DNA of 36,192 nucleotides, taken from positions 1-36,192 of the forward strand of contig JANYJD010000289.1 of assembly GCA_025358555.1 (NCBI GenBank), written 5' to 3'. A program made the translations under genes and the position numbers. Source of the stretch: Rhodoferax sp. Lineage in GTDB: Bacteria; Pseudomonadota; Gammaproteobacteria; Burkholderiales; Burkholderiaceae_C. How positions within the stretch are numbered: the stretch's first letter is position 1; each line of letters starts with the position of its first letter. The notes under the pieces were generated by a model. The model had not been told where the DNA came from and did no database searches. It saw only the letters and a program-made list of their open reading frames with translations. Positions 216-27,984 of this stretch are shown here, piece by piece.

Positions 216-1895
216 ATGCCCACCCTAGACTGGCTCAACCGCGCAAGCGCCTTCACCACTGCGGCACGTGTGCCCTACCGGCTGCTGGAGCAGGTGTCGG
301 TTCACACTGCCAGCATTCACCTTGAGCCCACCCCCGTTCAACTTGAACCCACTCCCGGTCACCTTGAGCCTGTCGAAGGGCCTGCAGGCAACGCCGACAA
401 CTTGCTCATCCAGGGCGACAACCTCGTAGCGCTCAAGGCGTTGCTGCCGTTTTACCGGGCCTCCGTGAAGTGCATCTTCATCGACCCGCCCTACAACACC
501 AAGAGCGCGTTCGAACACTACGACGACAACCTGGAACACGCCCAGTGGCTCAGCATGATGCTGCCGCGCCTGCAACTTTTGCGCGAGCTGCTGCGGGACG
601 ACGGAAGTATCTGGGTGACGATTGACGACAACGAGGGGCATTACCTCAAGGTGCTGATGGATGAGGTGTTTGGGCGGGGGAATTTTGTGGCGAATGTGGT
701 CTGGCAGAAGAAGTACGCAGTTGCAAGTGATGCCAAGGGCTTCTCCGATTTTCACGATCACATTTTTGTTTACACAAAAAACGGCAAATTTCAGCGGAAT
801 TTGCTACCTCGGTCTGATAAGCAAGATTCGCTCTACAAGCACGACGATCAAGACGGAAATGGGCCATGGCGAACCGACAATCTGTCGGTCAAGACATATT
901 CTGAAAATTACGACTATGCGCTGGCAAACCCCAAAACCGGCAAGGAGTATTGGCCACCCAAAGGGCGATGCTGGTACACGTCGCGCGAAAAAATGACCTT
1001 GTTGTTGGCCAACAATGGAATCTATTTCGGAAAAGACGGTGTGGGTGCGCCACAGCTAAAACGCTACCTCGCTCGGGTTCAGGGCGGCGTTGTTCCGTCA
1101 ACTTGGTGGACGAACGACGACGCAGGGCATAACGACGAATCGCGCAAGGAGAGCAAGGTTCTTTTTGAGGTCGAAGATCCGTTTTCGACTCCCAAACCGG
1201 AGCGCCTCCTCCAGCGCATTTTGAATATCGCCACCAACCCCAACGACCTCGTCCTCGACAGCTTCCTAGGCTCCGGCACCACAGCCGCAGTCGCCCACAA
1301 AATGGGCCGCCGCTGGATTGGCATTGACATGGGAGAGCACGCTGCCACACACTGCTTGCCACGCCTGCAAAAGGTGGTTGGCGACGAACAAGGCGGCATC
1401 AGCAAAACTCTGAATTGGGCCAGCGGCGGCGGCTTTCGCTTCATGCAGCTGGGCGCAACGGTGTTTGACGAAGCGGGCCGTATCCACCCCGCTGTGCGTT
1501 TTGCCACGCTGGCCGCGTTTGTGTGGCAACAGGAAACCGGCGCCGGTTTTGACCCGCTGGCAGCAAAACCCGGCACACCGTTGCTGGGAACATACTACAC
1601 TTTTAATAGCTACTCATGCACAGTGGACGAGGGCTTAGGGCCAATATTATCCCTAAAAACAGCCCAATTTTCCTGCTACCTGCTGTTCAATGGCATTCTG
1701 GGCGACAAGCGCCCGGCCAGCGGCAATGTGCTGACCCGGGCCCTGCTGGACGCCCTGCTGGCACTGCACGCCACCACGCCTGAACCCAGCGCGCCCCTGC
1801 TGGTCTACCGCGAAGCCTGCCGCCTGGGCGAAGAGCGCTTGAAGCAGGCACATGTGACGTTTAAGCACATTCCCTATGACGTGAGGGCGCGGTGA
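216..1895 (+). CDS. mod: Type III-like restriction-modification DNA methyltransferase (Mod, beta-class)
   Basis: DPPYNT motif precedes the SAM motif DLVLDSFLGSGTTAAVAHKMGRRWIGIDMG; 559 aa; res-like gene downstream. Confidence 0.88.
   Translation: MPTLDWLNRASAFTTAARVPYRLLEQVSVHTASIHLEPTPVQLEPTPGHLEPVEGPAGNADNLLIQGDNLVALKALLPFYRASVKCIFIDPPYNTKSAFEHYDDNLEHAQWLSMMLPRLQLLRELLRDDGSIWVTIDDNEGHYLKVLMDEVFGRGNFVANVVWQKKYAVASDAKGFSDFHDHIFVYTKNGKFQRNLLPRSDKQDSLYKHDDQDGNGPWRTDNLSVKTYSENYDYALANPKTGKEYWPPKGRCWYTSREKMTLLLANNGIYFGKDGVGAPQLKRYLARVQGGVVPSTWWTNDDAGHNDESRKESKVLFEVEDPFSTPKPERLLQRILNIATNPNDLVLDSFLGSGTTAAVAHKMGRRWIGIDMGEHAATHCLPRLQKVVGDEQGGISKTLNWASGGGFRFMQLGATVFDEAGRIHPAVRFATLAAFVWQQETGAGFDPLAAKPGTPLLGTYYTFNSYSCTVDEGLGPILSLKTAQFSCYLLFNGILGDKRPASGNVLTRALLDALLALHATTPEPSAPLLVYREACRLGEERLKQAHVTFKHIPYDVRAR
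318..380 (+). repeat. Three tandem 21-bp units inside mod (HLEPTPV/QLEPTPG/HLEPVEG)
   Basis: caccttgagcccacccccgtt / caacttgaacccactcccggt / caccttgagcctgtcgaaggg at 318, 339 and 360; in frame. Confidence 0.85.
1606..1642 (+). repeat. 37-bp dispersed repeat core, copy A (inside mod)
   Basis: atagct act catgca cagt ggac gagggct tagggcc. Confidence 0.85.
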
Positions 1896-2719
1896 AAACA
1901 AAAGCCGAGCTGCCAGCCGTTACCCACTACTTCGTTGACGAGTCGGGGGATGGGGTGTTGTTTGGCTCGCAGGGAAAAGTGTTGCTGGGCCAGCCCGAGG
2001 GCCGCAGCCACTTTATGCTGGGTGCGCTGCAAGTTCCCGAGCCACTCGCACTGGCGGCGGCGCTGGAGACACTGCGTCACGATTTGCTGAAAGACCCGTA
2101 CTTCAAAAGCGTGCCGTCCATGCAGCCTGAGCGGCGCAAAACGGCATTGATGTTTCACGCCAAAGATGATTTGCCAGAGGTGCGGCGCGAAGTGTTCAAA
2201 GTTTTGCAACGCGCAGACATCAAGTTTTTTGCCGTGGTGCGTGACATGCGGTACGTGTTGGCCTACGTGCAAGAGCGCAATGCGCGGGATGCGGTTTACC
2301 GTTATCGTCCTGACGAGCTCTACGACCAAACCGTGGCACGCCTATTCAAGGACAGGCTGCATTCGTACCAGTCCTGTCAAATTTGCTACGGCGTGCGTGG
2401 AACAGCAGACCGAACGCGGGCATTTCAAAATGCCCTGAACACTGCACGCAAACGCTTTGAAGAAAAATGGGACAAGAACGTCACGACGCAGATTGAGCTA
2501 TTACCCAGCAGCCCCCGCAAAGAACCTTGCCTTCAGGCCGTGGATTATGTGTTGTGGGCGCTGCACCGCTACTACAGCCAGGGTGAGTCGCGGTTTATCG
2601 AGATGCTGTGGGACAAAGTAGGCTTGATTCACGCCGCAGACGACAAAGACCACGCCGCCTACGGAACCCACTACACCAAGAAAAAGCCGCTGCCTGATTT
2701 AACAGGAGCGGCTTTATGA
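1892..2719 (+). CDS. DUF3800 domain protein
   Basis: N-terminal YFVDESGD and C-terminal CLQAVDYVLWALHR motifs typical of DUF3800; GTG start overlaps the mod stop (GTGA). Confidence 0.8.
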   Translation: MKTKAELPAVTHYFVDESGDGVLFGSQGKVLLGQPEGRSHFMLGALQVPEPLALAAALETLRHDLLKDPYFKSVPSMQPERRKTALMFHAKDDLPEVRREVFKVLQRADIKFFAVVRDMRYVLAYVQERNARDAVYRYRPDELYDQTVARLFKDRLHSYQSCQICYGVRGTADRTRAFQNALNTARKRFEEKWDKNVTTQIELLPSSPRKEPCLQAVDYVLWALHRYYSQGESRFIEMLWDKVGLIHAADDKDHAAYGTHYTKKKPLPDLTGAAL

Positions 2720-2853
2720 ATAGGTGTGGGGATATAGGATTGCTTGACTGGGTTGCCCCTTGGCTTTTGCATTCACACGGCATGGAGCCGAATTTTGTCC
2801 CCGACGACCGCAGTGTAATTTCTGTGGATAACTATGTCAATAAGTCTGTATAA
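2716..2853 (+). CDS. Small ORF, 45 aa, unknown function
   Basis: MNRCGDIGLLDWVAPWLLHSHGMEPNFVPDDRSVISVDNYVNKSV*; ATGA overlap with the DUF3800 stop, preceded by aggagcgg. Too short for the supplied ORF track. Confidence 0.45.
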   Translation: MNRCGDIGLLDWVAPWLLHSHGMEPNFVPDDRSVISVDNYVNKSV

Positions 2854-2856
2854 GTC

Positions 2857-2952
2857 ATGACCCCCGTCGCCCTCAAGTCCCGCCAACAGGCGCTGCAGAT
2901 GTTTAGCAAGGTGTCTTGCATATGCCTTCACGTTGGCCCGAAGGAGCGGTAA
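2857..2952 (+). pseudogene. 31-aa ORF resembling the N-terminus of the downstream res gene (possible res remnant)
   Basis: MTPVALKSRQQALQMFSKVSCICLHVGPKER* versus [17 protein letters not shown] at 4791; TAATG overlap with the next CDS. Confidence 0.45.
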
Positions 2953-27387: not shown

Positions 27388-27402
27388 GAAATCACCTCTT
27401 GT

Positions 27403-27900
27403 ATGAAACGAAGCTTGTATCTTGCGCTAAGCGCCGCGGTTTTGGCAATTGGCGCAATTGTTAATTTGAGTACTTCCACGTCGGCAGCGCCCGCGTCTAC
27501 TTTTGTCCTGCTCGACGGCTCACGCAAAACTGCGGATGAATTCAAAGGCCGCGTCACGCTGGTCAACTTCTGGGCTACAAGCTGTGTCACGTGCGTGGCA
27601 GAAATGCCCAAGGTGACGGCCACTTACAGCAAATTCCACAACCGGGGTTTCGACGTAATGGCCGTTGCCATGCGGTACGACCCGCCCAGCTATGTGGTGA
27701 ACTATACCGAGACCCGCAAGCTGCCGTTCAACGTTGCCATTGACAACACTGGCAGCGTTGCCAAGGCGTGGGGCGACGTGCAGCTGACGCCCACCAGTTT
27801 TGTCGTGAACAAGCGCGGCGAGATCGTCAAACGCTACGTGGGGGAGCCCGATTTTGCGGAGTTGCACCGCCTGATTGAGAGCCTGCTGGCCCAGACCTGA
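27403..27900 (+). CDS. TlpA-family disulfide reductase/thioredoxin-like protein
   Basis: FKGRVTLVNFWATSCVTCVAEMPKVTATYSKF; CVTC motif after a signal peptide. Confidence 0.88.
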   Translation: MKRSLYLALSAAVLAIGAIVNLSTSTSAAPASTFVLLDGSRKTADEFKGRVTLVNFWATSCVTCVAEMPKVTATYSKFHNRGFDVMAVAMRYDPPSYVVNYTETRKLPFNVAIDNTGSVAKAWGDVQLTPTSFVVNKRGEIVKRYVGEPDFAELHRLIESLLAQT

Positions 27901-27925
27901 TTTTGGGCAGTTTCATCATGCAAAA

Positions 27926-27951
27926 GGCCAATTTCAACTGTGAAATTGGCC
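27926..27951 (-). terminator. Hairpin ggccaatttca-N4-tgaaattggcc, terminator-like on the minus strand (after cytochrome c')
   Basis: Perfect 11-bp stem; the minus strand continues ...ggccttttgc. It is also the 3' part of repeat copy C. Confidence 0.4.
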
Positions 27952-27984
27952 TCTAGCCCTCGTCCGATATGCATAGTTAGCTAT
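27948..27984 (-). repeat. 37-bp dispersed repeat core, copy C (intergenic tlpA/cytochrome c')
   Basis: Minus strand: atagct aac tatgca tatc ggac gagggct agaggcc, followed by hairpin ggccaatttca/tgaaattggcc. Confidence 0.88.

Follow-up and report, generated by a model that had tools for sequence, protein, structure and literature searches.

The window analysed here, a stretch of 36,192 nucleotides from a Rhodoferax genome (contig JANYJD010000289.1), carries eight copies, A to H, of a dispersed repeat, and this work deals with the repeat family to which they belong. A preliminary description of the window had aligned eight 37-bp segments, two of them (B and C) between genes and six within genes for Mod, Res, LipB, a secreted protein, a CHASE2 protein and an MFS protein. 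All eight were found at the coordinates and on the strands given there and align without gaps; the host genes and the identities counted by hand (30/37 positions for C and H, 27/37 for A and H) were likewise correct. The copies are listed below with the bits and E-values of the nhmmer genome search made with a 71-column profile, which was obtained by one iteration from the eight-copy profile; ORF denotes an open reading frame.

1592..1657, + strand: copy A, sense phase 1 in the type III Mod ORF 216-1895(+), residues ~458-482; 53.2 bits, E 7.5e-14
6236..6301, - strand: copy G, antisense in the Res ORF 4761-7478(+), residues ~491-515; 43.0 bits, E 1.2e-10
7540..7607, - strand: copy H, antisense in the LipB ORF 7379-8236(+), residues ~54-77; 41.3 bits, E 3.9e-10
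14389..14456, + strand: copy B, intergenic, downstream of ORF 10770-14375; 64.1 bits, E 2.9e-17 (second best score genome-wide)
16572..16636, - strand: copy D, sense in the secreted-protein ORF 16090-16776(-); 42.8 bits, E 1.4e-10
19616..19673, - strand: copy E, sense in the CHASE2 ORF 18880-20415(-), residues ~247-270; 30.6 bits, E 8.6e-7
25043..25097, - strand: copy F, sense in the MFS ORF 24749-26314(-), residues ~405-428; 39.6 bits, E 1.3e-9
27933..28000, - strand: copy C, intergenic, between the convergent genes 27316-27900(+) and 28033-28518(-); 59.6 bits, E 7.5e-16

In Pfam, the hosts of copies A, G and E match N6_N4_Mtase (type III Mod is a DNA methylase), ResIII and CHASE2, respectively, and LipB, the host of copy H, was recognized by both Pfam and PDB matches.

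The first profile, built from the eight window copies, gave 503 matches at E<=0.01 across the 4.75-Mb genome and none in an order-4 Markov sequence of equal length. The iterated profile recovered 8/8 window copies and found 742 matches in the genome vs. 0 in the Markov-4 control, so that the genome-wide scan against a composition control placed the family far above chance. The density is about one copy per 6.4 kb, and copies are present on each contig longer than 25 kb. The 37-bp core aligns as described, but the real element is about 70 bp long, its conserved columns running from about -15 to +54 relative to the core in the order CTAY, seven A/T, RTAGCT, AMYTATGCA, a variable part, GACRAGGGCTACAGGC, ATTT, ACC and AAAT. 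The information content of the motif amounts to 64.5 bits in this genome, within a range of 55-77 bits.

Past the core, AT-rich blocks follow at about +40, +51, +62 and +72, reaching approximately +82 with a period of ~10.5 bp (autocorrelation 0.87 at lag 10), and the neighbour mutual information in this region shows that adjacent columns favour AA/TT over mixed (TA) steps. The phased blocks have the look of DNA made for bending or wrapping; the element as a whole is AT-richer than the surrounding DNA. The perfect hairpins observed behind copies B and C are real but exceptional: stems of at least 8 bp accompany only 1.6-1.8% of copies on either side, and the hairpin was rejected as a part of the element. 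No covarying column pairs at long range, no conserved palindrome and no terminal inverted repeats were found among the copies, and no Rfam family matched them; the lack of an Rfam match and of long-range covariation led us to reject an RNA structure as well.

The distribution of copies with respect to genes was assessed with ORFs predicted by a simple home-made hexamer scorer, so that gene and intergene counts are approximate. The occurrence of the repeat in both orientations within unrelated genes, noticed in the window, holds genome-wide: 297/742 copies (40%) lie wholly within predicted ORFs, the other 445 being intergenic or placed across gene ends. Coding sequences contain 0.70 copies per 10 kb, while convergent, tandem and divergent gaps contain 12.2, 7.1 and 3.3, respectively; hence, the intergenic density is about tenfold that of coding DNA, and the divergent gaps, where promoters lie, have the lowest density among the gap types. 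Copies lie closer to typical genes and avoid atypical ones. Their spacing is more even than random (coefficient of variation 0.89 vs. 1.00 +/- 0.04 for chance), and close neighbours are scarce: no gap is shorter than 100 bp (11 expected), 2 are shorter than 200 bp (11 expected) and 11 are shorter than 500 bp (32 expected). Copies show no preference for either strand relative to replication (121 vs. 115), and a polar replication motif of the KOPS (FtsK-orienting polar sequences) or Chi type was therefore rejected, as was an oriented transcription terminator, given 106 vs. 106 orientations in tandem gaps.

Within ORFs, two of the six frames dominate, sense phase 0 (130 copies) and antisense phase 1 (113 copies), a preference that goes beyond what stop codons alone account for. 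In sense phase 2 copies, the TAG of RTAGCT is altered, mostly to GAG, the frequency of T2 falling from 95% to 4%, and in antisense phase 1 copies A11 is mostly G. Coding copies are thus a compromise between motif and protein, with the frames adapted against stops. Column frequencies of coding and intergenic copies correlate with r = 0.97, which indicates one family under one constraint.

The preliminary description had taken the repeat for a small mobile or self-propagating element. The closest pair in this genome outside shared flanks is 91% identical, and the identity distribution nearly equals that of column-permuted copies. Long-range mutual information, too, equals that of data in which columns were permuted within score classes (0.011 vs. 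0.010 in this genome, 0.040 vs. 0.039 in the Polaromonas genome G033). The copies behave like independent draws from one weight matrix; neither subfamilies nor near-identical pairs left by amplification were found among the copies of this genome. Recent transposition was rejected on the grounds of nearest-neighbour identity and mutual information, and no transposase was found that tracks the element across relatives.

The comparison with relatives showed that the positions of the copies are conserved. When both flanks could be aligned with the congener G001, 27/28 copies had a G001 copy in the corresponding interval, 26 of them in the same orientation, the chance expectation being ~0.14 for each site. 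With G033, which belongs to another genus, 30/45 positions are shared, 26 in the same orientation (chance 0.15). In this flank comparison, the tblastx orthology for G017 and G004 contained many false flanks and was used for orientation only. Conversely, 44/52 in-ORF copies of the relatives have a copy at the aligned place in our Rhodoferax genome (22/24 for G033, 8/9 for G017, 4/5 for G004 and 10/14 for G001). Among particular loci, one helicase-like gene (C378:4428-8012) has three copies, at 4896, 6728 and 7504, each matched by a G033 copy.

At these shared positions, the genomes differ in spelling. The core reads ATAGCTGCTTAGGCAATAAATACGCCGGCTA in G033, ATAGCTGCTTGCGCTTGNNNGACAAGCGCTA in G017 (where the raw match count was doubled because this core is palindromic) and TAGCTAACTATGCA..ACGGGGACTT in G001, while that of G004 is near the core of our genome; the cores thus differ among the five sampled genomes, also at shared sites. 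For instance, the in-gene copy at C60:4919 is common to our genome, G033 and G017 with equal flank distances, and in each it is written in the dialect of the genome concerned. With dialect columns defined from copies outside the compared pairs, the pairs with G033 are 89% identical in common-consensus columns, 4% in dialect columns and 38% in flanks; the corresponding values are 88%, 26% and 48% for G001, and 84%, 17% and 38% for G017. In one pair with G001 (C141), element and flanks are near-identical, as expected for recently exchanged DNA. Since shared sites keep the common columns while the dialect shifts, a common reader acting by selection or drive is the most straightforward explanation: under neutral decay the common columns would not have survived, and a single early burst offers no way of bringing every site to a new spelling. 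The dialects at shared positions thus suggest that the sites evolve in concert and that something trans-acting reads them.

In the genomes covered, the element is known from one family of bacteria only. A profile (R1) detected it in 17/61 genomes, all from the family of the window, and in 0/24 genomes from other families of the order. A 43-bit pattern, for which we estimate ~0.06 chance matches in the collection, was searched in the GTDB genomes, and all genus-level names among the matches listed belong to Comamonadaceae. The genera include Rhodoferax, Polaromonas, Curvibacter, Acidovorax and others, related bacteria of freshwater and soil, which agrees with the initial impression of an unnamed, dispersed betaproteobacterial family. 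In the same-family relative G009, neither five profiles nor a gapped-word search revealed the element, and its presence there in another dialect was rejected. Exact pattern matches were also found in eight viral contigs (L268-L275), three of which contain the same copy.

The open literature gave no name for the family. A paper of 2017 lists ATAGCT(N)22CAAAAG, with 125 copies in Polaromonas naphthalenivorans, and GCTTAT(N)5AAGCG, with 114 copies in Acidovorax ebreus, each as a 'potential novel motif', and treats the two as separate and unrelated (PMC5217627, Table 7). Like the element, both lie mostly between genes, with a bias to gene ends and convergent gaps; they consist of its words and very probably are fragments of two of its dialects, but the cross-genome link, the dialects, the conserved positions and the in-frame copies do not appear there. 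A miniature inverted-repeat transposable element (MITE) of Polaromonas JS666 (Mattes et al. 2008, via PMC10969869) may be this or another repeat.

The element is also found in DUF1010 (Pfam PF06231), whose first ~25 residues (LASSAC..SASSY.F) are encoded by its antisense strand. In a plasmid (NZ_MZ513635.1, L312:2351-2641) and in ~1750 plasmid records, a class 1 integron cassette that is annotated as DUF1010 and lies between dfrA12 and aadA2 holds a copy whose dialect, ATAGCTGCTTGCGCTTG...CAAGCGCTAGAGGCC, is Acidovorax-like, and this suggests that the cassette derives from Comamonadaceae DNA; we take this cassette to be gcuF/orfF. Tandem DUF1010 ORFs with an element copy in each occur in G012 (C4:435-1393 and C12:521-1651) and probably represent a cassette array.

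With its genome-wide spread, restricted range, conserved positions, dialects, mutual avoidance, frame adaptation and lack of subfamilies, the family resembles a genome-wide recognition system more than a jumping element. We hold with middling confidence that Comamonadaceae possess a hitherto unrecognised system of this kind, in which a ~70-bp helix-phased site in double-stranded DNA occupies several hundred conserved positions and a reader, whose specificity shifts between species, drags all the sites along; it would be the longest sequence watermark known for a bacterial chromosome. Somewhat short of an even chance, yet preferred to the alternatives, is the more particular view that the copies are chromosomal recognition sites, ~700-1000 per genome, held at fixed places by a trans-acting reader and most likely serving as an uptake-type watermark; by analogy, uptake as the way of working may be given even odds at best. 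A protein would read the site, laid out as CTAY, an AT-rich spacer, RTAGCT, a species-specific core, GCTA.AGGC and helix-phased A-tracts, as wrapped or bent double-stranded DNA, and the sites would change together as its preference changes. DNA carrying the current dialect would be favoured in natural transformation and recombination, so that alleles matching it would spread at one site after another (molecular drive) and the dialect would follow the receptor. Within genes, sites would arise for the most part through point substitutions where loops and linkers tolerate them, and some may have come with, or attracted, small insertions.

Several observations weigh against this proposal. ComEC is present in our genome and all other element-bearing genomes tested, but also in 18/19 relatives scored as element-free, so that competence does not track the element; some of these relatives may carry an undetected dialect. 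No candidate for the reader emerged from the RAYT (REP-associated tyrosine transposase; REP, repetitive extragenic palindromic) and ComEC comparisons. The dialect of the congener G001 is more distant than that of G004, which belongs to another genus. Uptake sequences have short cores of about 9-12 bp, and ~70 bp with 55-77 bits far exceeds such a motif. Then, some copies are linked to gains in length. Over 61 residues, 17 copies compared with the element-free G009 gave differences of -13, 0, 0, 0, 1, 3, 9, 11, 11, 12, 16, 21, 23, 23, 24, 25 and 33 residues (two of the 23s are paralogues), with the isoleucyl-tRNA synthetase (IleRS) copy among the zeros; gains of at least 18 residues occur in 5/17 copies vs. 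3% of control windows, made against relatives other than G009. A DprA-like ORF (by its sequence) in C22 contains two copies, one noted at 3218, and one of the two sits in a 25-residue gain relative to G009. The gains of 11-25 residues suggest that some copies were inserted whole; yet copy F, in a transmembrane stretch, adds 0 residues relative to homologues without the element peptide, and for copy H the host exceeds its homologues by no more than 4 residues. Differences of zero alongside large ones mean that both in-place and insertion-linked modes occur, the window illustrating the former.

The main rival, which we consider rather unlikely, is that each ~100-bp site is wrapped by a nucleoid-associated protein, a condensin loader or DNA gyrase of the host, the sites serving chromosome organisation as regular points of anchoring or supercoil relief, especially at gene ends. 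The AT blocks phased at 10-11 bp with their AA/TT steps, the mutual avoidance, the fixed positions and the excess in convergent gaps are all what one would expect of such sites; on the other side, dialects diverge strongly even within a genus, which is difficult to square with gyrase or another conserved protein, the same-family relative G009 lacks the element, and the comparisons made yielded no candidate for a binding protein. An old mobile element, MITE-like or resembling the Rickettsia palindromic elements (RPEs), amplified in the family ancestor and persisting since, was already disfavoured and appears improbable. It would explain the hundreds of copies, the several found in gains of 23-25 residues (~70 nt) relative to element-free homologues and the avoidance of promoters, and RPEs likewise give in-frame peptides (PMC10969869). 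There are, however, no near-identical copies or subfamilies; positions shared across genera together with a coordinated change of dialect are incompatible with one burst followed by neutral decay, and copy F and the IleRS copy entail no change in length. On these grounds, in particular the orthologous positions (27/28 and 44/52) and the lack of a tracking transposase, self-propagation as originally suggested was largely not upheld.

A REP/REPIN-like system read by the single-copy RAYT (TnpA_REP) encoded beside gltB has a similarly low probability. This gene (G000:C139:7168-7867, upstream of gltB) occurs once and intact in all element-bearing genomes, it is flanked by copies of the element in our genome and immediately followed by one in G001 and G033, and the RTAGC/GCTAY words recall the GTAG tag of REPs. 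The same orthologue, however, is present in 35/35 family relatives tested regardless of the element, which led us to reject RAYT as a discriminating partner; among relatives, whether or not they have the element, the gene is bordered by a different motif (GGGGTCAG...CTGACCCC), and the element itself is not a conserved hairpin, is not confined to extragenic DNA and lacks identical copies. The RAYT gene looks domesticated: its best matches, found in nearly all family relatives, have 40-77% identity, the gene is intact and almost always single, and the flanks that were inspected contain GGGGTCAG/CTGACCCC.

The recognition sites favoured above find their closest working analogy in the DNA uptake sequences (DUS) of Neisseriaceae and the uptake signal sequences (USS) of Pasteurellaceae. 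Phased AT-rich flanks are a feature of USS too. Like these sequences, the element occurs in hundreds of copies in and between genes, on either strand, in dialects, in frames set by tolerance, with a spacing more even than chance and within one family; it differs in its length of ~70 bp, its 55-77 bits and the association of some copies with insertions. For DUS, eight dialects and permissive coding frames have been described (PMC3630211). RPEs, ~150 bp long, comprise some ten families and are described as insertions (PMC10969869); the resemblance to them seen in the window holds for the outcome, repeat-coded in-frame peptides in unrelated proteins, but not for the behaviour, given the dialects, the orthologous positions and the in-place origin of some copies. 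With REP/REPIN-RAYT systems, the element shares dispersed short repeats, a single-copy RAYT in the genome and GTAG-like words, and it differs in having no conserved palindrome, clusters, pairs or identical copies, in having 40% of its copies in ORFs and in that RAYT does not track it.

Two side observations concern the window. The type III restriction-modification genes mod and res (216-7478) hold one copy each, and in the ORF hosting copy D part of the signal peptide (LAAILVIAACALPARAQG) comes from the element, possibly a case of a repeat supplying a targeting signal.

In-frame repeat peptides, then, need not be insertions, and one element accounts for the start of DUF1010 and, very probably, for two motifs thought to be unrelated. 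If our interpretation is true, the chromosomes of a large environmental bacterial family are stamped with a signature that is specific to each species, evolves, and in addition contributes peptides to hundreds of proteins. Two questions would then become testable, namely how the same change of spelling reaches hundreds of fixed loci and whether exchange of DNA according to its sequence extends beyond Neisseriaceae and Pasteurellaceae.

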